Below are positions 6,482-28,740 of a stretch of DNA of 64,000 nt, in pieces (the first letter of the stretch is position 1; each line of letters begins with the position of its first letter). Made by a program: the position numbers and the translations under genes. The notes under the pieces were generated by a model, which searched no databases, was not told where the DNA came from, and saw nothing but the letters and a program-made list of their open reading frames with translations. Origin of the DNA: Sphingorhabdus wooponensis (GTDB lineage: Bacteria > Pseudomonadota > Alphaproteobacteria > Sphingomonadales > Sphingomonadaceae); contig NZ_RWJI01000002.1 in NCBI RefSeq assembly GCF_003933235.1, positions 310,001 to 374,000 on the forward strand. The letters are read 5' to 3'.

Positions 6482-6941
6482 TCCGCTTTTGGGTCGAAAC
6501 CGGAAAGTCCGCTTTGCGCGTTCGTCGAGCCGAAAGCAGACAGCCAGCTCCCGGCCCAGAATCTGCCATGGCCCCTAATCAAGGACGACAGCCGATTAGG
6601 CTTTCCGCCAAAATAGCCTGTTCCAATTGGAACGCTGGCAAACAGTGTTCGACGCCAACGACTCTTCCCGGGCAAATAGGACTTTTGTGGGGTTTGGGAT
6701 TGCGCGGACCGGTCCCAAAGCGTTACGGATGATCTCGCTCATCCGTTTTTAGGAGCGAGCTGAACACAGAAATGAGCTCAGTGCCAATCGCGCAAACCGG
6801 CAATGCCCCATCCAAGGCCGACTTAAACGCTGAATTTCCAGGATTTTTGAACCGGCGTTCCAATTAGAACGATCATAAAAACGCACGCTGTAGCCACGCT
6901 TTGGGCTGCAAAGGCGATATCACCTAAGTCATTGAAATAAT
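6482..6941. repeat. Cassette left-end module, copy 1
   Basis: About 460 bp without a convincing gene, repeated at 17719, 28741 and 39360. Fixed landmarks: palindrome GTTCCAATTGGAAC at 6620-6633 (322 bp before the tRNA core), a hairpin followed by T5 (6725-6750), and a second site GCGTTC-N6-GAACG(A) at 6855 (87 bp before the core, imperfect here). In its single-base differences this copy resembles copy 3 more than copies 2 and 4. It abuts the truncated tRNA-Gly core. Confidence 0.85.
6725..6750 (+). terminator. Hairpin plus T-run inside module copy 1
   Basis: ACGGATGA and TCATCCGT pair perfectly around a 6-base loop and are followed by TTTTT, the shape of a Rho-independent terminator reading rightwards. 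All four module copies have it; this copy has lost one loop base. Confidence 0.6.
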
Positions 6942-6987
6942 TGGAGCGGGCGAAGGGATTCGAACCCTCGACCCCAACCTTGGCAAG
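6942..6987 (-). repeat. Truncated tRNA-Gly 3' end: attachment-site core, copy 1
   Basis: Forty-six bases identical to the 3' part of the intact tRNA-Gly gene (39772-39817): CCA end, acceptor 3' strand, T arm, variable region and anticodon arm up to the anticodon loop. The 5' half of the tRNA is missing, so no functional tRNA is made. Just beyond the core, the sequence keeps a weak resemblance to the D-arm (TAGAGC-like). It marks the left boundary of cassette A. Confidence 0.9.
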
Positions 6988-7085
6988 ATTCGGCTCTTTG
7001 AAATTTCCGTTCTAAATCAGCTTTTTATAAAGCTCCTGAAAAATCCGAACACGATCCGAACATTCTCCGCGCAGTTTGCTCAAAG
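6988..7085. repeat. Cassette right-end sequence of cassette A
   Basis: About 100 bp shared with the bases after the other two truncated cores. Two direct repeats of ATCCGAACA at 7043-7051 and 7054-7062 are 11 bp apart (one helical turn) and start 56 bp from the core, as in the other copies. There is also a small palindrome AGCTTT-TTAT-AAAGCT. Direct repeats of this kind resemble arm-type integrase or excisionase sites; that reading is inference. Confidence 0.75.
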
Positions 7086-7189
7086 AGCTTTGTGTCCCTA
7101 TGAGCGGATATTGTTCCAGCAAGATTGCTATGATTGCGTTTTACGACGTTCTGCACCGTCCGCTTTGAAGGCCAAAGACCCAGCGATTT

Positions 7190-7212
7190 GCCATTCCTTT
7201 TGATAGAATGGC
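7190..7212 (-). terminator. Possible terminator downstream of the ArsR gene
   Basis: GCCATTC and GAATGGC pair around a 9-base loop, 30 bp beyond the ArsR stop codon. There is no long T-run in that direction, so termination is only a possibility. The rest of 7086-7242 shows nothing recognisable. Confidence 0.3.
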
Positions 7213-7242
7213 CATGCTTTGATGGCAAAAACATCAACCCCG

Positions 7243-7641
7243 TTAAATGATGCGTGCGAAGCCTGCCGTGCCAGGTGCCGGGGGTGAAATTGCCTCAGGC
7301 TTGTTCAATTGCAGGGCGGTATTCAACATTTGCCCCACATCGCCTTCGTCCCCAAGGATGGCTTCCATGCTGCGAACGCATAAGCAGACTTTATCATCCA
7401 CTAAGTCGTACCAGATTTGCTTGGACGCACGGCGCGTTTTGACGAGGTCGTTGCGGCGCAGTTCCGCGAGTTGCTGGCTAAGCGCAGGTTGGCCTATGCC
7501 CGTTGCGGCATCGATTTCGCTCACCGTCCGTTCACCGCGCAAAAGGCAAGACAAGATCATGAGCCGCTGCGGCTGCGCATAGACTTTTAGCTTGTCCGCC
7601 GCTTTTACGGCGCGGTCGCGACTTTCAAACAGCGACGTCAT
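7243..7641 (-). CDS. ArsR-family repressor, sulfide-responsive BigR/SqrR-like
   Basis: A 132-residue winged-helix repressor: recognition region GIGQPALSQQLAELRRNDLV, wing TRRASKQIWYDL. Cysteines lie at about 32, 86 and 88; Cys32 sits near the place of one sulfur-sensing cysteine of BigR/SqrR, but I cannot confirm the second. The start ATG at 7641 forms an ATGA overlap with the peroxiredoxin stop, so the two share a transcript. Position opposite a persulfide dioxygenase-SQR operon points to a regulator that senses persulfide. A metal-sensing ArsR is less likely because no CxC metal site of the ArsR type is in the recognition helix. Confidence 0.8.
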   Translation of the reverse strand: MTSLFESRDRAVKAADKLKVYAQPQRLMILSCLLRGERTVSEIDAATGIGQPALSQQLAELRRNDLVKTRRASKQIWYDLVDDKVCLCVRSMEAILGDEGDVGQMLNTALQLNKPEAISPPAPGTAGFARII

Positions 7642-8270
7642 TTCGTGTCGGCCAAATGGCAAAACCAATCATCGTCACCACTGATTTCGGCGCTGTTTAT
7701 AATTGGTAATGCAAGCAATTTGTCCCCTGGTTGCCATCCTTCTGGCGCAAGGCCAGTGCCGCCCTGAGTAGCTTGCAATGCGCGAAGAAGGCGCAGCATT
7801 TCACTGACCGAGCGCCCCACATTATGCGGATAAGTGGTGATGGCACGAATGATGCCGTCGGGGTCGATGAAATAGGTTGAGCGAACCGCGGCGCTATCCG
7901 CTGCAGTATCGTCAATCATGCCATATGCGCGGCCAATGGCCATGGAGGGATCTTCAATGATCGGGAAAGGAACATTCACCCCAAATTTATGTTTAATCGC
8001 AGTCACCCACGCAATGTGCGAATGGATACTGTCCACGGAAAGCCCGAGCAATGCACAACCAGTTGCTTCGAACGCAGCGGCCGACTTGGCAAGCGCAACA
8101 AATTCCGTCGTGCACACGGGCGTAAAGTCTGCAGGGTGCGAAAACAAGATGAGCCACTGGCCCCGATATTCCGATAGGCTCCGTTCCCCGAGCGTGGTCC
8201 GCGCGCGAAAGTCCGGCGCTGTTTCGCCGATCCTAATGGGCTGTGCTGCAACTGCTTTCGTGTCGTTCAT
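7638..8270 (-). CDS. 1-Cys-type peroxiredoxin (Prx6/AhpC-TSA family)
   Basis: About 210 residues. The peroxidatic cysteine is in DFTPVCTTEF (Cys about 53), followed by the Prx6-like C-terminal part (T-Y-P-x-N-V-G-R, then LLRALQATQ). It reduces peroxides, and possibly polysulfides, in the cytoplasm. Another cysteine lies six residues from the end (DWFCHLADTK) and could act as resolving thiol. ATG 8270 is chosen because AGGA lies 8 bases upstream; a GTG at 8303 is the alternative. It is translationally coupled to the ArsR repressor and diverges from the sulfur operon. Confidence 0.85.
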   Translation of the reverse strand: MNDTKAVAAQPIRIGETAPDFRARTTLGERSLSEYRGQWLILFSHPADFTPVCTTEFVALAKSAAAFEATGCALLGLSVDSIHSHIAWVTAIKHKFGVNVPFPIIEDPSMAIGRAYGMIDDTAADSAAVRSTYFIDPDGIIRAITTYPHNVGRSVSEMLRLLRALQATQGGTGLAPEGWQPGDKLLALPIINSAEISGDDDWFCHLADTK

Positions 8271-8313
8271 TTCTTCATCCTGTTCATCGGTCGGCGCTGC
8301 CACGAGACTTGTA

Positions 8314-8352
8314 TTGACGCAACACGGATAATCGATTACACAATTTATGTAA
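8314..8352 (+). promoter_or_regulatory. Divergent promoter region of the sulfur operon with candidate operator
   Basis: A TTGACG (8314-8319) with a 17-bp spacer to TACACA (8337-8342) could be the promoter of the rightward operon. The inverted repeat TTACA-N7-TGTAA (8336-8352) covers the -10 region in an AT-rich stretch, the sort of place an ArsR-family repressor would bind. Binding by the adjacent ArsR protein is inferred. Confidence 0.5.
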
Positions 8353-8375
8353 ATATGAATTTATAGGAGTTTTCC

Positions 8376-9293
8376 ATGCCCGACTCAGCGTTAGAAAATG
8401 CCATCGCGCAGGTGAGTGATGCCCAAAAGGGTGTTCCGATAATTCGTGCCTTTTTCGACAAACCGACTTTCACGGTCAGTTATGTGGTCCACGATCCTGA
8501 AACCAAGCAGGCCGCGATCATTGATAGCGTGCTTGATTTTGATCCTGCCTCAGGGCGAACATCGTTCGCGTCGGCGGATGCCATTATCGCATATGTTGCA
8601 CAGCAGGGCTTGGCCGTTGATTGGCTGCTCGAAACCCATGCGCATGCCGACCACCTTTCGGCAGCACCTTATTTGCAGCAAAAGCTTGGCGGCAAAATCG
8701 CCATCGGCGAACATATCGTTACCGTCCAGAATGTATTCGGAAAGCTGTTTAACGCTGGCACTGATTTTCAGCGTGACGGATCAGATTTTGATCAGCTTTT
8801 TGCCGATGGCGACCACTTCCAAATTGGGAAGCTGGACGTAACCGTCCTCCATGTCCCCGGTCATACGCCTGCGGACATTGCCTATGTCATTGGTGACGCC
8901 GTGTTCACAGGCGACACAATGTTCATGCCCGATTACGGCACGGCGCGCGCGGATTTTCCCGGCGGAAATGCGCGGCAATTGTTCCAGTCGTTGCGCCGGA
9001 TTTTGTCGCTGCCTGCCACGACGCGGCTCTTCATGTGCCACGACTATCTGCCTGCTGGTCGCACGGAATATGCATGGGAAACGACTGTGGAGGCAGAGCG
9101 TAAAGGCAATATCCATGCCCATGACGGCATAACCGAAGATGAATTTGTCGCGATGCGTGAGGCGCGCGATGCAACGCTCGATATGCCGCGCCTGATTTTG
9201 CCGTCGGTGCAAGTGAATATGCGCGCAGGCCATATGCCCGCGGCGGACGACAATGGCATCACATACCTCAAAATCCCGGTCAACGCCGTATGA
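8376..9293 (+). CDS. blh: Persulfide dioxygenase-like metallo-beta-lactamase-fold hydrolase (Blh/ETHE1 type)
   Basis: A 305-residue MBL-fold enzyme with the iron/zinc motif HAHADH (residues 88-93), the second metal segment LHVPGHTPADIAYV, FTGDTMFMPDYGTAR and FMCHDY. ETHE1/Blh proteins oxidise glutathione persulfide to sulfite. In many BigR operons Blh has an N-terminal DUF442 rhodanese domain; here that domain is on the SQR instead. ATG 8376 follows TAGGAG. It opens a rightward operon in which the next genes overlap by ATGA. Together with the SQR it would complete sulfide-to-sulfite oxidation. Confidence 0.9.
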   Translation: MPDSALENAIAQVSDAQKGVPIIRAFFDKPTFTVSYVVHDPETKQAAIIDSVLDFDPASGRTSFASADAIIAYVAQQGLAVDWLLETHAHADHLSAAPYLQQKLGGKIAIGEHIVTVQNVFGKLFNAGTDFQRDGSDFDQLFADGDHFQIGKLDVTVLHVPGHTPADIAYVIGDAVFTGDTMFMPDYGTARADFPGGNARQLFQSLRRILSLPATTRLFMCHDYLPAGRTEYAWETTVEAERKGNIHAHDGITEDEFVAMREARDATLDMPRLILPSVQVNMRAGHMPAADDNGITYLKIPVNAV

Positions 9294-9730
9294 TATCGGC
9301 CTTTCCCAACGCCATGCCTGTTGAGGGCTTTATGGGCGGCTTGCTGATTGGACTTGCGGCCGCAATAATGCTGCTCGGCCTTGGCCGGATCGCCGGCGTC
9401 AGCGGAATGGCGGCACGGGCAACCGGCATCGCGGATAGCGGAGCGCCGCGAAATGTCGCAATCGCATTCGTCGTCGGCCTTCCGCTTGGTGCGCTTCTGA
9501 TCGCGCAGACCGTTGGTGCGGTGAACGTCAGTTTTCCAGCATCCATCTGGCCGCTGATCATCGGTGGCTTACTCGTTGGTTATGGCACACGGCTCGGCTC
9601 GGGCTGCACCAGTGGCCATGGCGTATGCGGGCTGTCGCGTCTTTCGCCGCGGTCGATGGTGGCAACCGGCATGTTCATGGCAAGCGGGTTTGTGACCGTG
9701 GGGCTTCTGCGCGCGGGAGGCTGGCTATGA
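9290..9730 (+). CDS. YeeE/YedE family membrane protein, first of pair (PmpA-like)
   Basis: 146 residues with four hydrophobic segments. The family signature [19 protein letters not shown] is near residues 98-116, with the conserved cysteines expected to relay reduced sulfur species. The start overlaps the dioxygenase stop (ATGA). YeeE/YedE proteins import thiosulfate or related sulfur compounds, and split pairs like this one are common in BigR-type sulfur operons. Exact substrate unknown. Confidence 0.85.
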
Positions 9731-10170
9731 CCCGGGCGCTTATCGCATTGCTCTCTGGAACGCTGTTCGGGGCAGGCCTTGCCTATTCGGGCATGTCAGA
9801 TCCTGCCCGCGTTCAGGCGTTTCTGGATCTGCTTGGCCAATGGGATCCAACGCTCGCTTTCGTCATGGGTGGCGCCATGCTGCCAATGGCCGTGGCTTGG
9901 GTGATTAGATCGCGGCTGTCTGCGCCGCTTGCGGCACCAACGTTCGATTTACCAGGCACGACCAAGCTCGATCGCCCGCTTGCCATTGGGGCCATATTGT
10001 TTGGAATGGGTTGGGGCATTGCCGGCCTTTGCCCCGGCCCTGCGCTTACTGACTTGGCGATTGCGCCGGGCGATGTCGCGCCATTTGTCGTTGCGATGTT
10101 TGTCGGCATGGCCGCGCAACGCTTCACAGCTTTTACATCCCAAAAACCAAAACAAGCGGGGCCTAAATGA
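9727..10170 (+). CDS. YeeE/YedE family membrane protein, second of pair (PmpB-like)
   Basis: 147 residues, four hydrophobic segments, with [20 protein letters not shown] around residues 91-110, the second-half signature of the family. The start at 9727 makes an ATGA overlap with the preceding gene; the frame is open upstream to 9625, but that part shadows the first protein. The pair probably forms one transporter of sulfur species equivalent to a fused YeeE. Confidence 0.85.
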
Positions 10171-11750
10171 CGTTCAAATCCATCACGCCGGGCTTTTCTG
10201 TGTCAGGGCAATTGACGACAGAAGATCTGCATCACGCTGCCGCGCAGGGCTTCAAATCGGTTATCTGCAACCGGCCAGATGGCGAAGAGGCGGGGCAACC
10301 ATCCGCCGCCGCCATTCAGAAAGAAGCAGAAGCGCTTGGCCTGTCATTCACATATATTCCAGCCATCTCAGGCGCAGTTACGGACGATGATGCGGCGAAG
10401 ATGAAGGCGGCTCTGGCCCAAATGCCACCCCCCATTCTTGCCTATTGCCGCTCCGGCGCGCGTTCAGCCAAGCTTTGGGAAATGGCGACAAAAGCTCAGG
10501 ATGCAGCGCCATCCTCCGCCAAAATCTATGATGTGGTTATCGTGGGCGGCGGCAGTGCCGGCATCGCCACAGCCGCAAGCCTGTTAAAGCGCAATCAGAA
10601 GCTATCGGTTGCCGTAATCGAACCTTCAGAAGACCATTATTATCAGCCCGGCTGGACTATGGTTGGGGCTGGTGTTTTCTCGGCTGAATTCACCAAGCGC
10701 ACCGAAAAATCGGTCATGCCCAAAGCGGTTGACTGGATCAAAAAAGCAGCGTCGGGATTTGTGCCTGAGGACAATAAAGTGCTGCTCGCCGATGGCAGTT
10801 CGGTTGCCTATCGCGTGCTGGTGGCTTGCCCCGGGATCAAGCTGGATTGGGAGGCGATCGACGGCTTGACCGAAACACTCGGTCAAAATGGCGTAACGTC
10901 CAACTATCGTTACGACCTTGCCCCTTATACCAACCGCCTTGTGAAGGATTTCAAGCAAGGCCGCGCGCTGTTCACGCAGCCGCCAATGCCGATTAAATGT
11001 GCAGGCGCGCCGCAAAAATCAATGTATCTATCATGCAGTGCGTGGGAACGGGCAGGGGTATTGAACGACATTGATGTGCAATTCCACAATAGTGACGCAG
11101 TGCTGTTCGGGGTTGCCGCCTATGTGCCCGCACTGATGGAATATATCGAACGCTATGACGCGCACTTAAATTTTGAATCGAAGCTGGTTGCGATCGATGG
11201 CCCTGCCAAAATTGCGACATTTGAACAGAAACGCGGCGACATCATCACGCGGGTCGACGAAAAGTTCGACATGATCCATGTCGTCCCGCCGCAAGTCGCG
11301 CCGGATTTTGTGCGCAACAGCCCGCTGGCTGCCGCAAATGGTTTCATTGAGGTCAATGAAGCAACATTGCAGCATGTGCGCTATCCTAATGTCTTTGCAT
11401 TGGGCGATGCCTGCTCGGCGTCAAATGCCAAGACAATGGCGGCAGCGCGCAAGCAAGCGCCGGTGGTCGCGGTGAACGTATTGGCTGCTCTTGAGGGCAA
11501 GCCACCTGTCGCCGATTATGACGGCTATGGCAGTTGCCCGTTAACAGTCGAGCGCGGCAAGATTGTGCTCGCCGAATTTGGTTATGGCGGGAAATTGCTG
11601 CCGAGCTTCCCGAATTGGCTGATTGACGGCACGCGCCCATCGCGCCTTTCATGGCTGTTAAAGGACACCATCCTTCCGCCAATTTACTGGCACGGTATGC
11701 TCAAAGGGCATGAGTGGATGGTCAAGCCGCACAAGATCGGCGCGGCATAA
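10167..11750 (+). CDS. sqr: Fusion: DUF442/rhodanese-like sulfurtransferase + sulfide:quinone oxidoreductase (type II)
   Basis: 527 residues with two parts. Residues 1-110 are a TIGR01244/DUF442 domain (FSVSGQLTTEDL at the start, active-site loop AYCRSGARS with Cys94). Residues 120-527 are an FAD oxidoreductase (VVIVGGGSAGIATA at 123-136) of the human-SQOR-like class: Cys221 in VACPGIKLDW and Cys416 in GDACSASNAKT are the probable redox pair. The enzyme oxidises sulfide at the membrane, passes electrons to quinone and the sulfur to an acceptor; the fused domain could take the persulfide directly. The start overlaps the previous stop (ATGA). DUF442 on SQR rather than on Blh is notable. Confidence 0.9.
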   Translation: MTFKSITPGFSVSGQLTTEDLHHAAAQGFKSVICNRPDGEEAGQPSAAAIQKEAEALGLSFTYIPAISGAVTDDDAAKMKAALAQMPPPILAYCRSGARSAKLWEMATKAQDAAPSSAKIYDVVIVGGGSAGIATAASLLKRNQKLSVAVIEPSEDHYYQPGWTMVGAGVFSAEFTKRTEKSVMPKAVDWIKKAASGFVPEDNKVLLADGSSVAYRVLVACPGIKLDWEAIDGLTETLGQNGVTSNYRYDLAPYTNRLVKDFKQGRALFTQPPMPIKCAGAPQKSMYLSCSAWERAGVLNDIDVQFHNSDAVLFGVAAYVPALMEYIERYDAHLNFESKLVAIDGPAKIATFEQKRGDIITRVDEKFDMIHVVPPQVAPDFVRNSPLAAANGFIEVNEATLQHVRYPNVFALGDACSASNAKTMAAARKQAPVVAVNVLAALEGKPPVADYDGYGSCPLTVERGKIVLAEFGYGGKLLPSFPNWLIDGTRPSRLSWLLKDTILPPIYWHGMLKGHEWMVKPHKIGAA

Positions 11751-11755
11751 CCTTT

Positions 11756-13525
11756 ATGAAATTGGCACGCTATCTAACCATATTGGAATGGGGACGCGGC
11801 TATGGCGGCGTGACGTTGACCAATGACTTGGTGGCCGCTGCAATCGTCACAATCATGCTCATTCCGCAAAGCCTGGCTTATGCCATGTTGGCGGGCTTGC
11901 CACCGGAAATAGGGCTATACGCGTCTATTCTCCCCATCATTGCCTATGCCTTGTTCGGGACGAGCCGCGCACTCGCCGTTGGACCGGTGGCGGTGATTTC
12001 GCTGATGACTTTGACAGCGGCGAGCGCCGTTGCTGCACCGGGCAGCGCCGAATTTATTGCCGCCACGCTTGTCCTCGCGTTGCTGTCCGGGCTGATCCTG
12101 ATTGTCATGGGCGTGTTGCGTCTGGGTTTTCTCGCAAACCTGTTATCGCACCCTGTGGTGTCAGGGTTTATCACCGCAAGCGGTATCATTATTGCCACCA
12201 GCCAACTCAAGTCGCTGCTGGGCATTAAGGCGTCGGGTGAGGCACTGCCCGAGCTGGTCACGACGTTGATCGAAAATGCCAAGGACACAAATCCTTACAC
12301 CCTCGCGATTGGCGTGATTGCGACCGGATTTCTATTCTGGGTGCGCAAGGGTTTGAAACCCATGCTCGTCGGTTTCGGGCTGGCGGCGCGGCCCGCTGAT
12401 CTTGTTGCCAAAGCCGGCCCCATCGTCGCGGTCGCGTTGTCGATTTTGGCGGTCATTGCCTTCGATCTGGAAGCCAAAGGCGTGAAGGTGGTGGGCGACA
12501 TCCCGCAGAGCTTGCCGCCCTTTACTGTTCCCTTATTCGATGCGGAACTATGGCAGCGACTGGCCGTTCCTGCTTTATTGCTCAGCATTATTGGGTTTGT
12601 GGAATCGGTCTCGGTCGCGCAAACGCTCGCAGCGAAAAAGCGGCAGCGCATTGTTCCGGATCAGGAACTTATCGGCCTTGGCGCGGCCAATGTCGCCGCC
12701 GCTTTTTCGGGCGGCTATCCAGTCACGGGCGGATTTGCCCGCTCGGTGGTCAACTTTGATGCGGGTGCGGAAACCCCTGCCGCAGGTGCATTTACCGCGG
12801 TTGGCATATTGCTCGCGGCCTTGTTCCTGACGCCATTGCTCGCCTCTCTTCCCATCGCAACATTGGCAGGTACGATCATCGTTGCGGTCTTGAGCCTCGT
12901 CGATTTTAAAACGCCGCGCGCGATCTGGCATTATTCCAAAGCCGATTTTGCCGCGATGGCAGCGACAATAGCAGTGACGCTCCTGATTGGCGTTGAACCT
13001 GGCGTGATGGCCGGTGTCGGCCTGAGCCTCGCATTGTTCCTCTGGCGCGCCTCACGGCCACATGCCGCCATTGTGGGGCGGGTTCCCGAGACGGAGCATT
13101 TCCGAAATGTGAAACGCCACAAAGTGTTCACCGACCCCCGCATCCTGACCATTCGCATCGACGAAAGCCTGACCTATCTCAACGCGCGCTGGCTGGAAGA
13201 ATTCGTGCTGGAGGAGATTGCCGCACATCCCAAGCTCAAGCATCTCATCCTGATGGCCTCGGCGGTCAACGCGATTGACGCTTCTGCTCTGGAGAGCATC
13301 GAGGCCATCAATCACCGCATGGCCGATGCTGGCGTGTGCCTGCACCTGTCCGAAGTCAAAGGCCCGGTGATGGACGCGCTCGAACGTGCGCATTTTCTGC
13401 ACGAACTTACCGGACGGGTGTGGCTTTCACAAAATGAAGCTTTTGAGGCCGTGCTGGAAATCGCCAATCGCGAAGAAGAAACGCAAACGCCAACCGATTT
13501 GTGGATGGCAAGGGGACTGATATGA
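11756..13525 (+). CDS. SulP-family anion transporter with STAS domain
   Basis: About 589 residues: ten or more membrane segments in residues 20-430 with the SulP motif PQSLAYAMLAGLPPEIGLYAS (residues 37-57), then a cytoplasmic STAS domain (about 455-560). The start ATG at 11756 is 5 bp after the SQR stop. SulP proteins carry sulfate, bicarbonate or other anions. In this operon it most likely handles the sulfite/sulfate end product of sulfide oxidation; direction of transport is not evident. Confidence 0.9.
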   Translation: MKLARYLTILEWGRGYGGVTLTNDLVAAAIVTIMLIPQSLAYAMLAGLPPEIGLYASILPIIAYALFGTSRALAVGPVAVISLMTLTAASAVAAPGSAEFIAATLVLALLSGLILIVMGVLRLGFLANLLSHPVVSGFITASGIIIATSQLKSLLGIKASGEALPELVTTLIENAKDTNPYTLAIGVIATGFLFWVRKGLKPMLVGFGLAARPADLVAKAGPIVAVALSILAVIAFDLEAKGVKVVGDIPQSLPPFTVPLFDAELWQRLAVPALLLSIIGFVESVSVAQTLAAKKRQRIVPDQELIGLGAANVAAAFSGGYPVTGGFARSVVNFDAGAETPAAGAFTAVGILLAALFLTPLLASLPIATLAGTIIVAVLSLVDFKTPRAIWHYSKADFAAMAATIAVTLLIGVEPGVMAGVGLSLALFLWRASRPHAAIVGRVPETEHFRNVKRHKVFTDPRILTIRIDESLTYLNARWLEEFVLEEIAAHPKLKHLILMASAVNAIDASALESIEAINHRMADAGVCLHLSEVKGPVMDALERAHFLHELTGRVWLSQNEAFEAVLEIANREEETQTPTDLWMARGLI

Positions 13526-14931
13526 TGATCGAGCAGGAATGGGCAATAATTCTGGCCCGCGCACAATTTGCTTTTACCGTAAGCTTCCATTTTCTGTTCC
13601 CGGCGTTTTCGATTGGGCTCGCGAGCTTTCTCGCGGTTCTTGAGGGGCTGTGGCTGAAAACCGGTAAGGGCGTGTACGCCAATCTGTTTCGTTACTGGCT
13701 CAAGATATTCGCCGTCGTTTTTGCGATGGGCGTCGTTTCGGGCATCGTCATGTCCTACCAATTCGGCACCAACTGGTCGGTATTTTCGGACAAGGCCGGC
13801 CCCGTCATTGGGCCGTTAATGGCCTATGAAGTGCTGACGGCGTTCTTTTTGGAGGCTGGCTTTCTCGGCGTCATGCTTTTTGGCATCAACAAGGTTGGGC
13901 GTAAGCTCCACTTTGTTGCGACGCTGGCCGTCGCCATCGGCACCTTCATTTCCGCATTCTGGATATTGTCGGTGAACAGCTGGATGCAAACTCCGGTGGG
14001 ATATGAAATTGCGGCCAATGGTCAGTTCATGCCTGGTGATAGCTGGTGGACCATCATCTTCAACCCCAGCTTCCCCTACCGCCTCGTCCACACTTTGCTG
14101 GCGGCCTATCTGACAACGGCCTTTGCCGTGGGCGCGGTTGGTGCCTGGCATTTGTTGAAAGACAAAGCCAATCCGGGCGCGCGCAAAATGTTCTCTATGG
14201 CGATGTGGATGGCAGCCATCGTCGCGCCACTTCAGGTCGTGGCGGGTGACTTTCACGGCATCAACACGTTGGAGCATCAACCAGCTAAAGTCATGGCGAT
14301 GGAGGGGCATTATCAAAGCCATCCCAACGGCGCGCCATTGATTTTGTTTGGCATTCCGAACAGCAAAGAGCGAACGGTCGATTACGCCATTGAAATTCCC
14401 AAAGCATCGTCGTTGATCCTGAAGCATGATCTGAATGCACCGCTCGCTGGCCTTGATACCATCCCCGACGCAGACGAGCCGCCGGTTGGTATTGTCTTCT
14501 GGGCATTCCGGATCATGGTCGGTCTCGGCATGGCTATGGTAGCCATTGGCATGTGGAGCCTGCTCGCGCGGGCAAGAAAGCAGCTATATGAATGGTCGTG
14601 GCTCCATAAGGCGGCATTATTAATGGGCCCATCCGGCTTCATTGCCGTGCTTGCAGGCTGGGTGGTAACCGAAGTTGGACGGCAACCCTTCACAATCTAC
14701 GGCGTGCTGCGGACCGTAGACAGCGCATCACCGCTTGATGCACCCGCCGTTGCTTTCTCGCTTCTAGCCTTTGTCGTGGTGTATTTCGCAGTGTTCGGCA
14801 TGGGCATTTGGTATTTGTTGCGTTTGATGAAGAAACCACCGGAGGCGCACGAAAGCGCGCTCGATGGTGCCCCTATCCGAAGCGCAGGCATCACCCCTGC
14901 ACCAGCGGTATTGGAAGGAGCATCGACATGA
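13522..14931 (+). CDS. cydA: Cytochrome bd ubiquinol oxidase subunit I (cyanide-insensitive type)
   Basis: 469 residues. The N-terminal RAQFAFTVSFHFLFP carries the haem-ligand histidine (His23), NPSFPYRLVHTLLAAY a second ligand, and GRQPFTIYGVLRT the conserved C-terminal signature; GDFHGINTLEHQPAKVMAMEG is the quinol-site region. The short Q-loop is typical of CioA. bd oxidases reduce oxygen and are not inhibited by sulfide, unlike haem-copper oxidases, which fits the sulfide operon. The start overlaps the SulP stop (ATGA). Confidence 0.93.
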   Translation: MMIEQEWAIILARAQFAFTVSFHFLFPAFSIGLASFLAVLEGLWLKTGKGVYANLFRYWLKIFAVVFAMGVVSGIVMSYQFGTNWSVFSDKAGPVIGPLMAYEVLTAFFLEAGFLGVMLFGINKVGRKLHFVATLAVAIGTFISAFWILSVNSWMQTPVGYEIAANGQFMPGDSWWTIIFNPSFPYRLVHTLLAAYLTTAFAVGAVGAWHLLKDKANPGARKMFSMAMWMAAIVAPLQVVAGDFHGINTLEHQPAKVMAMEGHYQSHPNGAPLILFGIPNSKERTVDYAIEIPKASSLILKHDLNAPLAGLDTIPDADEPPVGIVFWAFRIMVGLGMAMVAIGMWSLLARARKQLYEWSWLHKAALLMGPSGFIAVLAGWVVTEVGRQPFTIYGVLRTVDSASPLDAPAVAFSLLAFVVVYFAVFGMGIWYLLRLMKKPPEAHESALDGAPIRSAGITPAPAVLEGAST

Positions 14932-15926
14932 TTGATCTGACGGTCATTTGGGCCAGCATCATTGGCTTTGCCATCATTGCCTATGTTGTCATGGACGGCT
15001 TTGATCTTGGCATCGGCATATTGTTTCCCTTTTTCAAAGTGGGCAAGGACCGCGATACCGCGATGAACAGTATCGCGCCTGTCTGGGACGGAAACGAAAC
15101 ATGGCTGGTGATGGGCGTCGGCGGTTTGCTTGCGGCCTTCCCGCTGGCGTACGCTATCATTTTGCCTGCGCTCTATGCCCCGATGATTGCGATGCTGCTC
15201 GGCCTTGTGTTTCGCGGCGTTGCGTTCGAATTTCGCTGGCGTGACCCCGCGCATCGCGAACTATGGGACAGGGCGTTTACGCTGGGCTCGTTCATTGCCA
15301 CCTTCGCGCAAGGGATAGCGCTTGGCGCGCTGCTCCAAGGCATTACCGTTGAAGGCCGCTCCTATGCCGGTGGATGGTGGGAATGGCTGTCGCCATTTAG
15401 CATTTTGACCGGCTTTGGGCTGGTGGTCGGCTACGCGCTTTTGGGCGCGTGCTGGCTGAACTGGAAAACTGAGGGCGCATTGCAGCGTCAAGCGGTCACT
15501 TATGCCGGACGACTGGGCATAAGCTTGCTATTGATGATCGGCCTGATCAGCCTCGCCACATTGACGCTTGAGGCGCAATATTATCTGCGTTGGTTGAGCT
15601 ATCCGGGTGTGCTGGCAACGGCCATAGTGCCGATTGCTACCATTGCCGTGACGTTCCTCTTCTATCGCAGTCTGCGTCGGACCAAAGACGCGCAGCCGTT
15701 CTTCTGGGCACTCGCATTGTTCGGCTTATGCCTGGTTGGCCTTGGCATTTCGATCTGGCCAAACGTCATTCCGGCGCGGGTCACCATCTGGGAAGCAGCG
15801 GCGCCGCATCGCAGCCAAGTCTTCATGTTGATCGGCGCGTCTATCATGGTCCCGATCATCGTTGCCTATACCGCATGGTCCTATTGGGTGTTTCGCGGCA
15901 AAGTCGGCCACGACGGATATCATTGA
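14928..15926 (+). CDS. cydB: Cytochrome bd ubiquinol oxidase subunit II
   Basis: 332 residues, eight or nine membrane segments. The N-terminus has VVMDGFDLGIGILFPF and the diagnostic segment WDGNETWLVMGVGGLLAAFPLAYA (about residues 57-80). Partner of the preceding subunit I, with an ATGA overlap and GGAAGGAG seven bases before the ATG. The larger open frame starting at 14808 is only an upstream extension. Together the pair forms the quinol oxidase that would accept SQR-derived electrons. Confidence 0.93.
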   Translation: MIDLTVIWASIIGFAIIAYVVMDGFDLGIGILFPFFKVGKDRDTAMNSIAPVWDGNETWLVMGVGGLLAAFPLAYAIILPALYAPMIAMLLGLVFRGVAFEFRWRDPAHRELWDRAFTLGSFIATFAQGIALGALLQGITVEGRSYAGGWWEWLSPFSILTGFGLVVGYALLGACWLNWKTEGALQRQAVTYAGRLGISLLLMIGLISLATLTLEAQYYLRWLSYPGVLATAIVPIATIAVTFLFYRSLRRTKDAQPFFWALALFGLCLVGLGISIWPNVIPARVTIWEAAAPHRSQVFMLIGASIMVPIIVAYTAWSYWVFRGKVGHDGYH

Positions 15927-16027
15927 TGCCGCGCGCTAAACAATTGGGCTGGTTCTTCGGCATCTGGATGCTGAGCGTCGGTGCTCTGGCGATTATCGGC
16001 GGTGTCATCCGTTGGGTATTGCTTTAA
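15926..16027 (+). CDS. DUF2474 small membrane protein (CydX-like subunit)
   Basis: A 33-residue peptide with one transmembrane helix (GWFFGIWMLSVGALAIIGGV) and a short basic N-terminus. Its ATG overlaps the cydB stop by one base. DUF2474 proteins follow cydAB in many Proteobacteria and are thought to act like CydX, stabilising the oxidase. It is too short for most gene finders, but its position and hydrophobicity support it. Confidence 0.8.
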   Translation: MPRAKQLGWFFGIWMLSVGALAIIGGVIRWVLL

Positions 16028-16052
16028 ACGTTTGCATAGGGAGAGGCGCAAA

Positions 16053-16916
16053 ATGACCGAGATGAACAATGGCCCGGAAACGTTGAAGGGCGAAGATTGG
16101 GCAGGCGAGATGGGGGCCAAATGGCTTGCCAATCTCGCATGTTTTGAAGGCATGATTGCCCCCATTGGCGAGGCGCTTCTTAGGCAAGCCGATTTTAAAC
16201 CCGGCGAACGCGTGCTTGATATCGGCTGCGGTGGCGGCGGGACGACAATTGCCATAGCCAAGGCCGTTGCGCCTTCGGGCGAAGTGGTTGGCATCGACAT
16301 TTCACCCGACTTGACGACCGCGTCTATGCGGCGAGCCAAAGACGCTGGAGTAACCAACATTGGATTCATCTGCGCTGATGGAGCCACGGTCCAGTTAGAA
16401 GATGCCCCGTTTGACAGGCTCTTTTCGCGCTTTGGCAGTATGTTTTTTCCCAAACCGCATAAGGCCTTTGCAAATTTGCACAGTCTGCTGCGTCCCGGTG
16501 CGCGGATTGATCTGGCGGTATGGGGTCCACCACGCGAAAATTTGTGGATGATGGAAATGATGGGCGTCGTCCGTCGCTATGTCGATATCCCCCCGGCGGT
16601 TCCCCGCGCGCCCGGGCCATTCGCGTTTGAAGACCTCGACTATCTGAACGAAATACTCGCGAGCGCCGGTTTTTCGGAAGCCAGCGCCGTCACCTATAAT
16701 GGGCTTCAACCGATTGGCGGCGTGAATGCCACACCGCATGATGCGGTATCTTTTGTGCTGTCTTCAATGGCGGCTGGACGCGCTCTAGAGGAACAAGGTG
16801 CAGATGTTCGCGCGGCAGCTGAAGCGGATTTGGTCGCGCTATTCCAGAGGCATTATGTAGCCGGACAAGGCGTGATGATGCAGGGTAAGGCTTGGCTCGT
16901 GTCGGCGACTGCTTAA
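16053..16916 (+). CDS. SAM-dependent class I methyltransferase
   Basis: 287 residues. Motif I RVLDIGCGGGGTTIAIA (about residues 52-68), acidic loop VVGIDISPD, motif II ICADGATVQLEDAPFDRLFSRFGSMFF. The family resembles UbiE/Coq5 small-molecule methyltransferases. ATG at 16053 follows AGGGAGAGG; the frame is open to 15981 but overlaps the DUF2474 peptide. It is 25 bp downstream of the oxidase genes and may be the last gene of the sulfur operon. A thiol or quinone acceptor would fit; the sequence does not say. Confidence 0.8.
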   Translation: MTEMNNGPETLKGEDWAGEMGAKWLANLACFEGMIAPIGEALLRQADFKPGERVLDIGCGGGGTTIAIAKAVAPSGEVVGIDISPDLTTASMRRAKDAGVTNIGFICADGATVQLEDAPFDRLFSRFGSMFFPKPHKAFANLHSLLRPGARIDLAVWGPPRENLWMMEMMGVVRRYVDIPPAVPRAPGPFAFEDLDYLNEILASAGFSEASAVTYNGLQPIGGVNATPHDAVSFVLSSMAAGRALEEQGADVRAAAEADLVALFQRHYVAGQGVMMQGKAWLVSATA

Positions 16917-17042
16917 ATATGGCCTCTTCTAATTGAAGCCGTGCTTTGGCCAACCTAAATGAGCGGCCGGTATGGTCGCGAGAACTGCCAAGCGTCCTGA
17001 GCGGCCTAAACGGCGGCTATTTGCGGTCGATGTATGAATGCA

Positions 17043-17156
17043 GACAGTCCGCTTCCGGCCCAATTTCGGTCATTACACCGAAGCGAATACGGTGGTCGCA
17101 ACAGCGGCAGCTTTCAGGCGACCGCCACCACCTTCTGAACGACGACATTTGGGTGG
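17043..17156. repeat. Structured intergenic repeat R2, copy 2
   Basis: About 114 bp, closely similar to 5331-5444, with the same two consecutive stem-loops. It fills most of the 16917-17247 gap between the methyltransferase and the DUF1330 gene. Bases just upstream (about 16990-17040) resemble 39315-39355 near the array's right end. I see no gene here. Confidence 0.7.
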
Positions 17157-17247
17157 ATCCCGGCGAAGCTCGCTTGGGTCAGGAAGAGGCCTGTTGGGTC
17201 ATTCCGATAGTTCTTGGGGCTCAGGCATATTTTTGCCATAAGCGGGC

Positions 17248-17679
17248 ATGGAAGAAAAACTCGAACCAAGCGAAAATCAACTCGCCAAGCTCATTTCGTT
17301 GTCCATCGAAACGCCATTAGCTGTGCTCAATCTTTTCGAGTTCAACACCATGGCGAATTATCAGTCCGGCGATCCTGAATATGCAACTAGCGCTTCTGAA
17401 ATCTCCGGCCAAGAAGCGTTCAACCTATATGGCGATGTTGCAGGGAAGACCATTGAGGACCTTGGTGGCCGGGTCGTCATGCAGGCGCCTACTGAGCAGA
17501 TCTTGATCGGAAATGAAGCAGCAAACTGGCATGCGGCTGCCATTATGTATTTTCCAAGTCGGGGTGCGTTCCTGCAAATGATGTCGGATGCAAATTTTCA
17601 GAGGGCGTCGCGGCATCGCAAAGCCGCGCTAAAAAATCATTATATGATCCACTTGAACGGTGAGGCATTCAAAAACTAG
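17248..17679 (+). CDS. DUF1330 domain protein
   Basis: 143 residues. The segment PLAVLNLFEFNTMANY and the later WHAAAIMYFPSRGAFLQMMSDANFQRASRHRKAAL match DUF1330, a small ferredoxin-like alpha/beta-barrel family of unknown function. No signal peptide or membrane helix. It stands alone between two repeat regions, just inside the left-end module of cassette A. Function unknown. Confidence 0.75.
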   Translation: MEEKLEPSENQLAKLISLSIETPLAVLNLFEFNTMANYQSGDPEYATSASEISGQEAFNLYGDVAGKTIEDLGGRVVMQAPTEQILIGNEAANWHAAAIMYFPSRGAFLQMMSDANFQRASRHRKAALKNHYMIHLNGEAFKN

Positions 17680-17718
17680 CTTTCGATTGGCTGCCGATCA
17701 CTTTGAGGACTCCAACCT

Positions 17719-18177
17719 CCGCTTTTGGGTCGTAACCGGAAAGTCCGCTTTGCGCGTTCGTCGAGCCGAAAGCAGACAGCCAGCTCCCGGCTCAGAATCT
17801 GCCATGGCACCTGATTAAGGATGACGGCCGATTAGGATTCCCGTCAAAATAGACTGTTCCAATTGGAACGCTGGCGAACGGTGTTCGACGCCAACGGCTC
17901 CTCCCCGACAAATCGGACTTTTGTGGCGTTTGGGATTGGCGGACCAGTCCCAAAGCGTTACGGATGATCGTCGCTCATCCGTTTTTAGGAGCGAGCTAAA
18001 CACAAAGATGAGCGCAGTGGCAATCGCGCAAACCGACAATGCTCCATCCAAGGCCGACTTAAACACTGAATTTCCAGGATTTTTGCGCGGGCGTTCCAAT
18101 CAGAACGCTGATAAAAACGCACGCTGTAGCCACGCTTTGGGCTGCAAAGGCGATATCACCTAAGTCATTGAAATCAT
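17719..18177. repeat. Cassette left-end module, copy 2
   Basis: About 459 bp, closing cassette A. Palindrome GTTCCAATTGGAAC at 17856-17869 (322 bp from the core), second site GCGTTCCAATCAGAACGC at 18091-18108 (87 bp from the core), hairpin plus T5 at 17960-17987. It is most similar to copy 4 (for example CTCCTCC and GCGCGGGCG where copies 1 and 3 have CTCTTCC and a C-CGGCG form). A 94-codon open frame on the minus strand (17815-18099) is present but not convincing as a gene. Confidence 0.87.
17960..17987 (+). terminator. Hairpin plus T-run inside module copy 2
   Basis: ACGGATGA and TCATCCGT pair perfectly around a 7-base loop and are followed by TTTTT. It would stop rightward transcripts leaving the cassette A cargo before they reach the tRNA core. 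Confidence 0.65.
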
Positions 18178-18223
18178 TGGAGCGGGCGAAGGGATTCGAA
18201 CCCTCGACCCCAACCTTGGCAAG
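18178..18223 (-). repeat. Truncated tRNA-Gly 3' end: attachment-site core, copy 2
   Basis: The same 46 bases as the 3' part of the intact tRNA-Gly at 39772-39817, with the 5' half absent. It separates cassette A from cassette B, 11,236 bp from copy 1 and 10,978 bp from copy 3. Confidence 0.9.
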
Positions 18224-18410
18224 ATTCGGCTCTATGAAATTTTGTCTTTATTTCAGATTGTTGTTTGGCTCTTGGGAAATCCGAACACGATCCGAACATT
18301 CTCCACGCAATTTGCCCAGAGCGGCTTTTGTGCAATGTTTTGGCGGAAGCCGCCACATTTAACGATCCCGCCACTTGTGATTCCGGTGTTCAGGTTTCCA
18401 GAGACGTGCG
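18224..18410. repeat. Cassette right-end sequence of cassette B
   Basis: It shares with 6988 and 29202 the bases next to the core and the two ATCCGAACA direct repeats (18279-18287 and 18290-18298, again 56 bp from the core). The sequence in between (after GAAATTTT) differs from A and C and lacks their AGCTTT-N4-AAAGCT palindrome. Weaker similarity to the cassette C end continues for about 100 bp. Confidence 0.7.
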
Positions 18411-18497
18411 GAAGGTAACAGTGCCCCGAGAGCAATAAGACATCCGCTTATTTTTTTGCGGAGTTTCGGCTAAGCAAAATGCCATGAGATACAGCGA

Positions 18498-18569
18498 GAT
18501 GGCACCACGAGTATTACTCGCGATGCCATCCTACCGGTACCTTTGTCCCACGCACTTAGCCAAAGTGCG
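18498..18569. terminator. Two stem-loops downstream of the TonB receptor gene
   Basis: First: GATGGCA (18498-18504) pairs with TGCCATC (18524-18530), enclosing CGAGTA-T-TACTCG. Second: CGCACTT (18551-18557) pairs with AAGTGCG (18563-18569). They lie 50-120 bp beyond the leftward receptor gene's stop. Neither has a clear T-run, so they may be transcript 3'-end structures rather than classical terminators. The remaining 18411-18497 shows nothing else. Confidence 0.4.
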
Positions 18570-18618
18570 AGAATGGAATTCAACTACCAACTTCTGTTAG
18601 TGCGTATGGTCGGTCTGA

Positions 18619-21132
18619 TTAAAATTTGTAGCCCACTTCGACACCCATCAGGCGACGTGCGCCTGGCGAGATAAATGAACCGCCAAATTCAATCGCTGGA
18701 ATGGCTTCGTTGATATATTTGCGGTCGAGCAAATTGTCAGCGAATGCAGTGACATTCCAGTTGTCACCTTCGAGACCAAAGCGCAGGTTCAAGACACCGA
18801 ACGGATCACGCTTGGCTACGCTGTAATTGGCGTTTCCAACTGCCCCGGGAAGTGCGAGCGCCGAAATTGGCAAAAGCTGGCTGAAAATCGTTGAACGTGT
18901 TTGATCCTGAACGGTGTGAAACCACGTTGCACCGGTAATCCGGTAATCGGCACGCAGAACCAAATCCATGCTGTCATTCAGCGGTGTATCGATCTGGCTA
19001 CCGAGGTTGATTGTGTAGTCTGCGGTATAAGGCGATTTGTTGCCCACGGTGTAAGGCCGTGATGCATTTTCCTTAATTTCGCTGTCCGTCAGGTTGACCG
19101 AACCGAAGACCTTCCAACCATCCATAATTTTGGCTGTTGTGTTCAGCTCGACGCCCTTAACATCGACCTGATCGATGTTGGAAACAACGCGGAGTAGACC
19201 AAAGGAGCCCACGAAGAATTCAAAGAACTGCATGTCTGTGATGCGGGTGTAATAACCAGCAACATCAAACGTAACGCGGTTGTCGAACAACGAACCCTTG
19301 ATACCCGCTTCAAATGAGCTCGACCGTTCTTTGCGGAACAGGTCATTGATCGTCACGCCTGCACCGATTGCAGGAATGTTGAAGTTTGCGTTCACCAGAG
19401 CAGACGAACCGGTGTTGTTGAAGCCGCCGGATTTAAATCCGATGCCCCAGTTGGCGTAGATGTTTGTCGAGCTATTCGGCGTGTAGCTAAGTGTGACCTT
19501 AGGCTGGACTTGCTTAAAGCTTGCCGATTTATCGGCAATTCCGCCTGTTGCGGGAAGGCCGGGATTGATCTTCGCACCGGTAATCGGGTCGAACACATTT
19601 GGCACGAGGTTGGACGTTGTGCGATCTTCAACGTCATAGCGCAATGCAAAGCCAGCTTTGAATTGATCGGACATTTTATAGTCGAGCGAACCAAATGCCG
19701 CATAAACATCGGTCTTGAACGTGTCATTGAACAACTGCGAAGTCGGGTTGCTGCTACCCGGGGCATTGTACAGCGCACGGCTGACACCCTGACCCAGATC
19801 CGCGCCGAGGCTGACGCCTACTGTGCGGTCGATGTGCAGTCCATAGACACCCAATTGCCAGTTCAGCGCGCTATCCGTGTTCGAGGCCAACCGGATTTCG
19901 CCGCTGATATCCTTTTGGTTGCGAATTTGCAGCTGCGTACCGTCGCAGGTTGTCGGGCTGTACGCACCGAAGGTCGAGCCCGTGGCTGGTGCAAAGATAA
20001 ATGGCACTGGAACCTGTCCGATGAAGCCCGGTGCGTTGACCGGGAAGCCCGTCAAAGATGCAGTCGTTGCAAAGCACTTGTTCTGGACTGCAAGGTTTGT
20101 TGCGTTCGAAGGCGCGCCCAGCGCTGGTGAAATATAACGTGCGAAATCAGCCGAGGTGCCGTCGGCCGTCAGGCTTTGGTCAACATCTGCATACAAAGCC
20201 CACGCGGTGAGCCGCGTTGAACCAAAGTCATGATCGATCTTCGCCGAAAGGTCGATCGAACGCTGGTCGTTCGTCGGACGGATGTTGCTGTAGTAACGCA
20301 GTTCGTGTGCATCGACGTCTTCGAAGAATGCGCCGCCAAATGCTTCGATATGAAATACCGAGTTGAAGTTAATCGACGCACCGGAAAACTTGGAATAGCG
20401 TGCTTTTACATCAAGTTCAGTCGCATCGCCCAGTTGCGCCATAAAGCGGCCGTCGATGGAGTAGACTTCCTGATCATCGACCACCTTTTGATCGAGATAC
20501 AAATTGCGGTAAAAACCGTCCGTGCTGCGGTAGTTGCCCGACAGAACGAAGCCTGCATTATCGCCCAACGGCGATGAAATGTAGGCCGATCCTTCCATCG
20601 TTTTTTCATTAGCGTAGCTGAGCTTCACTGCGCCTTCGAGGACATCGCCTGGCTTCACTGTCGATACGACGATTGCGCCAGCAGCAGCGTTGCGACCATA
20701 AATGGCGCCTTGCGGGCCCTTCAATATTTCGATCTGGCGCAGCGTGCCTTGCGTTTGGTTGAGCTGCGCGGTGTTTGTCTTCAAGATGCCGTCAACAACA
20801 AGAGCGACGGAGCTTTCCGCGTCGCGCGCGCCGTTAATCCCGCGGATGTTGATTTGGGTATCACCGGCTTCGGCCGTTCCCGTTACGATTGTTACGCCGG
20901 GTGTAAGCTGAGCAAAGCCTTGCGCATTGTCTGCGCCGGTTTTTGCAAGCGATTCGGCATCAATGACGGATACAGAAGCTGGGACGTCCACGAGCCGTTC
21001 ATTCTGACGACGCGCGGTTACGATGATTTCTTCAGCTTCAACGCCCTCTTCGGCCGTCTGTGCGAAAGCCGTGGTCGGAACTAAAACACTGACTGCTATC
21101 GATGATAGGAGTGCACTTTTCCCAATACGCAT
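18619..21132 (-). CDS. TonB-dependent outer-membrane receptor
   Basis: 837 residues. A signal peptide ends around AFAQ (residue 25), followed by the TonB-box-like EEIIVTARR (residues 34-42), a plug domain with IEILKGPQGAIYGRNAAAGAI, and a 22-strand barrel ending in an aromatic residue (EVGYKF). Length is typical of sphingomonad receptors for plant-derived or aromatic compounds rather than siderophores. It diverges from the GntR gene with a TTGTATACAA operator between them, so it probably imports the compound metabolised by the neighbouring operon. Confidence 0.92.
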   Translation of the reverse strand: MRIGKSALLSSIAVSVLVPTTAFAQTAEEGVEAEEIIVTARRQNERLVDVPASVSVIDAESLAKTGADNAQGFAQLTPGVTIVTGTAEAGDTQINIRGINGARDAESSVALVVDGILKTNTAQLNQTQGTLRQIEILKGPQGAIYGRNAAAGAIVVSTVKPGDVLEGAVKLSYANEKTMEGSAYISSPLGDNAGFVLSGNYRSTDGFYRNLYLDQKVVDDQEVYSIDGRFMAQLGDATELDVKARYSKFSGASINFNSVFHIEAFGGAFFEDVDAHELRYYSNIRPTNDQRSIDLSAKIDHDFGSTRLTAWALYADVDQSLTADGTSADFARYISPALGAPSNATNLAVQNKCFATTASLTGFPVNAPGFIGQVPVPFIFAPATGSTFGAYSPTTCDGTQLQIRNQKDISGEIRLASNTDSALNWQLGVYGLHIDRTVGVSLGADLGQGVSRALYNAPGSSNPTSQLFNDTFKTDVYAAFGSLDYKMSDQFKAGFALRYDVEDRTTSNLVPNVFDPITGAKINPGLPATGGIADKSASFKQVQPKVTLSYTPNSSTNIYANWGIGFKSGGFNNTGSSALVNANFNIPAIGAGVTINDLFRKERSSSFEAGIKGSLFDNRVTFDVAGYYTRITDMQFFEFFVGSFGLLRVVSNIDQVDVKGVELNTTAKIMDGWKVFGSVNLTDSEIKENASRPYTVGNKSPYTADYTINLGSQIDTPLNDSMDLVLRADYRITGATWFHTVQDQTRSTIFSQLLPISALALPGAVGNANYSVAKRDPFGVLNLRFGLEGDNWNVTAFADNLLDRKYINEAIPAIEFGGSFISPGARRLMGVEVGYKF

Positions 21133-21180
21133 GTAACCTTACTCCCCTAGTTTTCCAATTATTGCTTTGGAATGAGCTTA

Positions 21181-21190
21181 TTGTATACAA
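21181..21190. promoter_or_regulatory. GntR operator 1 (TTGTATACAA)
   Basis: A perfect 10-bp palindrome in the 88-bp gap between the divergent TonB receptor and gntR genes, repeated exactly at 21908-21917. The form TTGTATACAA is typical of FCD-class GntR operators. Probably bound by the adjacent regulator, controlling the receptor and itself. Confidence 0.7.
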
Positions 21191-21220
21191 ATGGCATTCG
21201 TCAAGAGGAGCGTTACACTA

Positions 21221-21895
21221 ATGTCCCGGGCATCGGAACGAGCATATAATCACATACGCAGCATGATTTTGTCCGGCGAATTACAGCCCGGGTCTCAAAT
21301 TCGTGAGGAAGCGCTTGCTGAATTATGCGGGGTTTCACGCACGCCCGTGCGTGATTCTCTTCGGCGACTTGAGGCGGAAATGTTCATTCGGCGAAACGAC
21401 TCGCAGCGGAGTTTTGTGGCAGATTGGTCGCTGGATGATCTGGAAGATGCTTTCCAGTTGCGCGCTATGCTGGAGGCGCATGCGGCAAAACGCGCAGCGA
21501 GCCGGATTACCCGTGAGCAATTGAAGCGGCTTCGTCTGCACAATGCTCAGCTGAAGCAGGCAATCGATATTCCGAATCCCGATGTACCAAAATTTTTGGA
21601 TCACAACCGGCAGTTCCATGCAATTATCGTTGCGGCTGCCGCATCCGAGCGACTTGCCAGCATGCTTGGGCAGGTTACCGAACAACCGGTGGTCTTGCGC
21701 ACTGCGCGACAATATGACGCAGAAAATCTGCGCCGTTCGCACCACGAGCATGACGAATTGCTTATCGCGTTTGACAATCGTGATGGTGAGTGGGCTGCGG
21801 CCGTAATGACTGGCCATATCCGGCGCGCATTCCATGCCTATGCGGAAGCGCATTCGACCGATACGGAAATTCGAAAGTCGAATTTGGCTGCATAA
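21221..21895 (+). CDS. GntR-family regulator, FCD domain
   Basis: About 224 residues. The N-terminal winged helix has GELQPGSQIREEALAELCGVSRTPVRDSLRRLEAE, the GntR signature. The helical FCD effector domain (residues 80-215) has the metal-site residues D..FH (HNRQFHAIIVAAA) and histidines near 195. I prefer ATG 21221 because GAGGAG precedes it and the operator at 21181 would then be upstream; ATG 21191 would sit right against the operator. It is probably a repressor released by an organic acid from the cassette B pathway. Confidence 0.88.
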   Translation: MSRASERAYNHIRSMILSGELQPGSQIREEALAELCGVSRTPVRDSLRRLEAEMFIRRNDSQRSFVADWSLDDLEDAFQLRAMLEAHAAKRAASRITREQLKRLRLHNAQLKQAIDIPNPDVPKFLDHNRQFHAIIVAAAASERLASMLGQVTEQPVVLRTARQYDAENLRRSHHEHDELLIAFDNRDGEWAAAVMTGHIRRAFHAYAEAHSTDTEIRKSNLAA

Positions 21896-21907
21896 TCCTA
21901 TTTTATT

Positions 21908-21917
21908 TTGTATACAA
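21908..21917. promoter_or_regulatory. GntR operator 2 (TTGTATACAA)
   Basis: The same perfect palindrome as at 21181, here in the 41-bp gap between gntR and the HMG-CoA-lyase-like gene, placed to control the five-gene catabolic operon. Confidence 0.7.
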
Positions 21918-21936
21918 TTATGCCATTTAAGGTGTG

Positions 21937-22848: not shown

Positions 22849-22858
22849 GGAGAGTTTA

Positions 22859-24907: not shown

Positions 24908-24920
24908 GGAGGCGAACGAC

Positions 24921-28614: not shown

Positions 28615-28740
28615 CTGGGTTAGGGACAGAAGGTAGATATCAGCCATCTAAATTCTCAACCGACCATAAACCCGCCTACACGCAGAAACACCGAAGTAGT
28701 ACGTGGTCTTGAAAAATGACTAGCAGCTTTCAGCGTTTAA

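Follow-up and report, generated by a model that had tools for sequence, protein, structure and literature searches.

Integrase-less islands that lie in tandem at RNA genes are already known, as CIMEs, ssrA islands, additive islands and tycheposons. The definition of CIMEs, and of their tandem accretion at tRNA genes, is given in PMC5704250, which cites Pavlovic 2004 and Bellanger 2011; CIMEs are flanked by att sites, carry neither integrase nor transfer genes, and stack in tandem at the 3' end of a gene. The ssrA islands of Dehalococcoides lie in tandem behind one RNA gene, are delimited by repeats of that gene's 3' end, carry metabolic cargo and in many cases have no integration module (PMC3146451). 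Additive flexible genomic islands and tycheposons, in the sections of PMC10872708 drawn on here, consist of cargo beside a tRNA gene with recurring tRNA-end repeats and environmental metabolic genes. We identified in Sphingorhabdus wooponensis an array of cassettes that resembles each of these systems, that has an unusual split-end organization, and that appears from its anatomy to be a set of tandem, tRNA-anchored cis-mobilizable islands or an additive genomic island. The array bears on how integrase-less genomic islands move; here, relatives allow the missing enzyme to be named.

The whole genome (2.18 Mb in 8 contigs, 100% complete) was searched, and the array was located at positions 292299-349846 of contig C2, where six cores delimit five cassettes over about 57 kb. 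Four of the cores lie in the window, by which we mean the entire 64,000-nucleotide stretch of DNA analyzed here (Table 1). The fourth is an intact tRNA-Gly(GCC) gene, at which the array is attached and which marks its proximal end. The other cores are displaced 3' halves of tRNA-Gly(GCC), about 45-46 bp long and reaching the anticodon loop; the most distal copy is degenerate and adjoins a desaturase-like gene. The att sites derive from the target gene, as they do in CIMEs, and repeats of the tRNA 3' end recur with strain-variable cargo, as they do in additive islands.

Table 1. Features of the cassette array, in window coordinates (cassettes are numbered over the whole array)
Feature	Position	Strand	Remarks
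Cassette 3, core to core	6942..18177	+	sulfide/sulfur genes and cytochrome bd
Cassette 4, core to core	18178..29155	+	TonB receptor, GntR, hydantoinase A/B, CoA-transferase III, isochorismatase
Cassette 5, core to core	29156..39771	+	copper resistance (multicopper oxidase, CopB, CopC, CopD), TonB receptor, hydrolase, AraC
att core 1	6942..6987	+	tRNA-Gly 3' half, 46 bp to anticodon loop
att core 2	18178..18223	+	tRNA-Gly 3' half
att core 3	29156..29201	+	tRNA-Gly 3' half
Intact tRNA-Gly(GCC) (core of copy 4)	39772..39846	-	proximal att site; ARAGORN, Rfam RF00005
Left-arm direct repeats, cassette 3	7043..7062	+	ATCCGAACA-cg-ATCCGAACA, starts 7043/7054; candidate arm-type sites
Left-arm direct repeats, cassette 4	18279..18298	+	starts 18279/18290
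Left-arm direct repeats, cassette 5	29257..29276	+	starts 29257/29268
Right-end block, cassette 2	6542..6941	+	400 bp, conserved throughout
Right-end block, cassette 3	17778..18177	+	
Right-end block, cassette 4	28756..29155	+	
Right-end block, cassette 5	39372..39771	+	adjoins tRNA gene
Palindrome 1 (-322)	6620..6633; 17856-17869; 28834-28847; 39450-39463	.	GTTCCAATTGGAAC in the first three, GTTCCAAATGGAAC at 39450
Palindrome 2 (-87)	6855..6872; 18091-18108; 29069-29086; 39685-39702	.	imperfect GCGTTCCAATTAGAACGA at 6855, GCGTTCCAATCAGAACGC in the others; most conserved window of the block
Terminator-like hairpin	6725..6750	+	ACGGATGA..TCATCCGT, then T5; nearly invariant in block

The cassettes are about 9-16 kb in size and hold several genes each. 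Cargo across the array is made up of metabolic and resistance genes, along with transporters and a glycosidase. The sulfur genes of cassette 3 encode an ArsR regulator, a peroxiredoxin, a metallo-beta-lactamase fold protein, Sulf_transp, DUF6691, an oxidoreductase and SulP. Pfam analysis of the cassette ORFs revealed no genes for integration or transfer, and an integrase HMM search found no integrase in the array, the integrases of this genome being located elsewhere. An integron (IntI with attC sites) was considered and rejected, given the size of the cassettes, their multigene content, the tRNA-derived core and an array without an integrase gene. Cassettes 1, 3, and 4 recur in other genomes, where their order and their distance from the tRNA differ. 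Independent insertion would fit this shuffling, and so would homologous recombination between junctions. A small cassette resembling an arsenic-resistance locus, with TTTA arms, is found in two genomes (L072:2794-5243 and L058:7993-10443); by sequence reading only, its genes would encode an ArsR-like regulator, a phosphatase-like protein and an ACR3-like transporter.

Several features set this array apart from the described systems. Compared with CIMEs, there are five cargo cassettes in a genome that has no integrase element, and all have the same type of right-end block. Integrase elements possess the left arm of the cassettes, but in the arrays examined none carried this right block, so simple decay of an ICE or IME into a CIME may not account for the cassettes. 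The ssrA islands depend on a CcrB-like serine recombinase, with a repeat of 20 bp (PMC3146451); here, the enzyme would be a tyrosine integrase, the core is 46 bp long and the arm-type repeats stand in tandem. For the additive flexible genomic island, the sections of PMC10872708 mentioned above give neither arm sites nor a cognate integrase; tycheposons are described there as carrying a tyrosine recombinase, which the cassettes lack, and the array would not be classed with them. In the literature searched we found no description of this array, of arm-site specificities that track integrase lineages, or of a dedicated cassette right end.

In the left arm of copies 1-3, ATCCGAACA is repeated directly with a spacing of 11 bp, starting 101 and 112 bp after the start of the core, and thus 56 bp past the 45-bp core, just as a preliminary description of this DNA had reported. 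The fourth copy has no such repeats because its core is the intact tRNA gene. Conservation was assessed in copies from 45 genomes of the genus, which were searched by whole-segment similarity without using the motifs as query. Both repeats are present at +101/+112, with the 11-bp spacing, in 27 of 35 left-arm copies. Across all 35, which were not selected for the motif, the 20-bp repeat window is the best-conserved stretch outside the core (95% identical, versus 78% before it and 56% after it). Tandem ATCCGAACA with two or fewer mismatches occurs four times in the S. wooponensis genome, each time at the array.

In relatives, the gene for a 429-aa tyrosine integrase lies beside tRNA-Gly, and ATCCGAACA repeats are found between this gene and the core at about -105, -83, and -72. 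The same arrangement is present in Porphyrobacter and Novosphingobium genomes. In both cassettes and integrase elements, then, the repeats keep a fixed, in-phase distance to the core. In addition, the repeat sequence tracks the integrase lineage (AACA, AACA/AAGA, and TTTA groups), in pairs that are few and phylogenetically related. Integrases at least 82% identical are accompanied by ATCCGAACA repeats, those of about 65% identity by AACA/AAGA pairs, two of about 51-54% identity (G040 and G017) by ATCCGTTTA repeats, and one of 43% identity (G357) by a close variant; these last three, the TTTA-type integrases, cluster in the tree with support 90/97. The two ends of an element also agree with one another. 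All three complete elements with TTTA repeats at the left carry them at the right as well (G002, G040, and an element of about 750 bp in G032), and none of approximately 16 elements with AACA repeats at the left has a TTTA right arm; by a hand count that ignores kinship, such matching would arise by chance about once in 1000. Because the direct repeats are conserved in many copies, are present beside an integrase gene, change with the integrase lineage, and match at both ends, they are very likely integrase arm-type sites, the identity first suggested for them by the preliminary description. Two side observations concern related repeats. A mini-element at tRNA-Gly, situated between two cores about 750 bp apart (L034), has TTTA repeats at both ends and hardly any coding capacity. 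Integrases of about 34% identity at tRNA-Arg(CCG) (L170, L171, L173, and L117) have tandem repeats of their own close to the end of the gene (TTGTCAA or TTGTGCA type).

The model of the integrase places N-terminal strands and a helix (residues 24-89) ahead of a tyrosine-recombinase fold, with modest global confidence (pTM 0.50) and an unreliable placement of the domains. With the model taken as a whole, Foldseek finds matches to Xer and Tn1549 and, at E 1.6e-8, to full-length lambda Int (1z1b). Like lambda Int, the proposed system would combine an N-terminal domain dedicated to DNA binding with core and arm sites and with arm repeats of fixed spacing. However, the two differ in sequence family and target, and the right end of the cassettes has no recognizable arm repeats. 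The cognate integrase is absent from the S. wooponensis genome, in which the nearest protein is 27% identical and lies beside tRNA-Thr, and plasmids carry merely relatives of about 25-31% identity. The docking sites at the cassette edges very probably belong to an integrase that is missing here and encoded by relatives. The host's own tyrosine recombinases, with which the preliminary description would have tested binding, are probably not the enzymes involved: the integrase that matches is encoded by elements of relatives that are specific for tRNA-Gly.

We consider it highly probable that the sites mark the two ends of cassettes that were integrated site-specifically at tRNA-Gly(GCC) and would be moved by a tyrosine integrase by way of core and arm repeats. 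This proposal builds on what was read from the sequence, namely the array anatomy, the conservation of the repeats and their association with integrases, the matching ends, the absence of the integrase, and the shuffled cassettes; from these we infer DNA binding, current mobility, and the role of the palindromes discussed below. The integrase would bind the anticodon-stem core through its core-binding and catalytic domains, while its small N-terminal domain would bind the pair of ATCCGAACA repeats in the element arm, which are spaced by one helical turn, as lambda Int does at its arm-type sites. The element would be inserted by a crossover within the anticodon loop, and its own tRNA 3' half would restore the gene. 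The next element would then enter the restored gene and push older ones outward, giving a tandem array. The cassettes retain the left arm and core without an integrase, and their other end consists of a 400-bp block of the genus in place of a repeat-bearing right arm. As the cognate integrase is absent and the cassettes encode none, they would be orphan, cis-mobilizable elements dependent on an integrase supplied by another element.

The docking repeats suggest how integrase-less cassettes could be moved. Natural co-variation pinpoints them as probable docking sites, and the AACA and TTTA specificities offer built-in swap controls. For metabolic cassettes that lack an integrase (copper, sulfide oxidation, arsenic), mobilization thereby becomes directly testable in harmless freshwater bacteria.

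The right-end block comprises the 400 bp before the core, and the four copies in the window are 87-94% identical. In all four, palindrome 1 starts 322 bp before the core and palindrome 2, a GCGTTC-N6-GAACGC site that is imperfect in copy 1, starts 87 bp before it; both had been noted in the preliminary description, which took constant distances as a sign of protein binding. That argument has force for the direct repeats, which lie amid diverging sequence, but not for the palindromes: the whole block is conserved, and constant spacing is therefore expected from common descent and provides no independent evidence. Conservation among 23 right blocks distinguishes the two palindromes. Within the block, conservation peaks at the -87 palindrome, a level that 0.7% of windows reach. 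In contrast, the one at -322 is at background, with 44% of equal windows conserved as well or better; its distance varies to -313 or -323, and several copies are without it. The expectation that binding sites should exceed their surroundings in many copies was thus borne out by the repeats and by the -87 palindrome, which is supported as a conserved element and is a candidate dimer site, and failed for the -322 palindrome. The two palindromes match at 16 of 18 positions (GTTCCAATYRGAACGCTG), which 0 of 200 shuffles reached, and are therefore related sites; a common binder of both is plausible. Exact copies of GTTCCAATYRGAAC occur at eight places in the genome, seven in the array and one inside a TonB-receptor coding sequence, and a genome-wide operator was rejected on the grounds that the sole match outside the array falls in a coding sequence. 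The -87 palindrome occupies the position held by repeats in the integrase elements (-83 to -64), and is probably a binding site of the cassette right end, perhaps as an alternative to those repeats. Both palindromes would belong to the cassette end, the one at -87 being important and the one at -322 doubtful.

Across 397 genomes of the family, the palindrome block is present in the genus and in one genome of another genus. In the arrays examined, the block never adjoined an integrase gene of the kind present at tRNA-Gly in relatives, and plasmids and phages matched its tRNA part alone. Viral contigs contained no exact repeat or palindrome patterns, and an Rfam search of the right block returned only the tRNA at gathering score. 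The ATCCGAACA repeats of the integrase elements are missing from the cassette right ends, which weakens the case that this integrase can use these ends; weak arm-like matches there, at 7/9 positions (for example, ATCAGAACG at -79), are near chance. Between cassettes and integrase elements, alignment of the right arms is confined to a short TAA-N4-TTGA-like stretch close to the core, and homology of these arms was rejected. Likewise set aside were a conserved ORF in the block, the frame of which is broken by 1-bp indels between copies, and gene conversion of the blocks within a genome, for which identities of 85% within and 82% between genomes give no strong signal. A 114-bp direct repeat, 95% identical, is located inside cassettes 2 and 3 shortly before their right blocks (window 5331-5444 and 17043-17156). 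A more speculative proposal, which we regard as unlikely, is that the cargo cassettes of the genus constitute a separate class, mobilized in trans. Such cassettes would borrow the left arm and core of the integrase and have a dedicated right end, with a palindrome read by another protein instead of the arm domain, and one integrase would accept two kinds of partner end.

Other explanations would assign these sequences a different role. The junctions might now be passive, with old insertions, repeats that are relics, and present shuffling by homologous recombination between near-identical junctions of about 500 bp (right block, core, and left arm). The similarity of the four right blocks and the lack of a cognate integrase in the genome agree with this, as does the existence of core-less fused junctions (G024:C67 at about 9.9 kb, and L160) and of deletions joining the two palindromes. 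However, relics would not be expected to remain the most conserved stretch of the left arm, relatives still have, at tRNA-Gly, integrase elements that bear these repeats, and the three TTTA elements with matching ends, one of them only about 750 bp, point to insertion of whole elements; passive junctions are possible, but we doubt this reading. We are similarly doubtful that the right block and its palindromes serve transcription rather than recombination, by terminating the tRNA-Gly gene, whose native downstream DNA is displaced by each insertion, and the incoming cargo operons. The + strand hairpin with its T5 run keeps its pairing in 21-22 of 23 sequences per position and shows one compensatory change, although the covariation term is small and the block, folded as a single strand, shows no exceptional stability (z -1.3 and -0.9). 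On the - strand, a hairpin and T-run just past the tRNA are found in 19 of 27 cassettes versus 22% of shuffles, and a T-rich tract likewise follows palindrome 1, yet just 3 of 7 right arms of integrase elements pass the same threshold, and a terminator has no need of palindrome 2, the best-conserved element. Part of the right block may nevertheless serve transcription.

The presence of two related GTTCCAATYRGAACGCTG copies in each block would also suit operators of a cassette-borne or host regulator that have no relation to mobility. This we judge improbable, since no gene common to all cassettes adjoins the palindromes, and in the genome the exact motif is confined to the array and the one coding-sequence match. 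Movement of the cassettes by the host Xer recombinases is scarcely credible. Genes of XerC/XerD size are indeed the best Phage_integrase matches in the genome, but at the same tRNA in relatives there is a dedicated integrase with matching arm repeats, and Xer systems are not known to use arm-type repeats.

A few junctions depart from the common arrangement. In L044 (G024:C67, about 9880-9945), the right block of cassette 1 is fused to the left arm of cassette 4 at a common CGAACA and the core is lost, either by deletion or as an assembly artefact. In L160 (about 289-308), an integrase-type right arm with three ATCCGAACA passes directly into the flank of a cassette left arm with no core. Finally, a core at L063:2198-2269 retains 72 nt of tRNA-Gly and lies near a different, 387-aa integrase; these probably represent another element family with a different crossover within tRNA-Gly.
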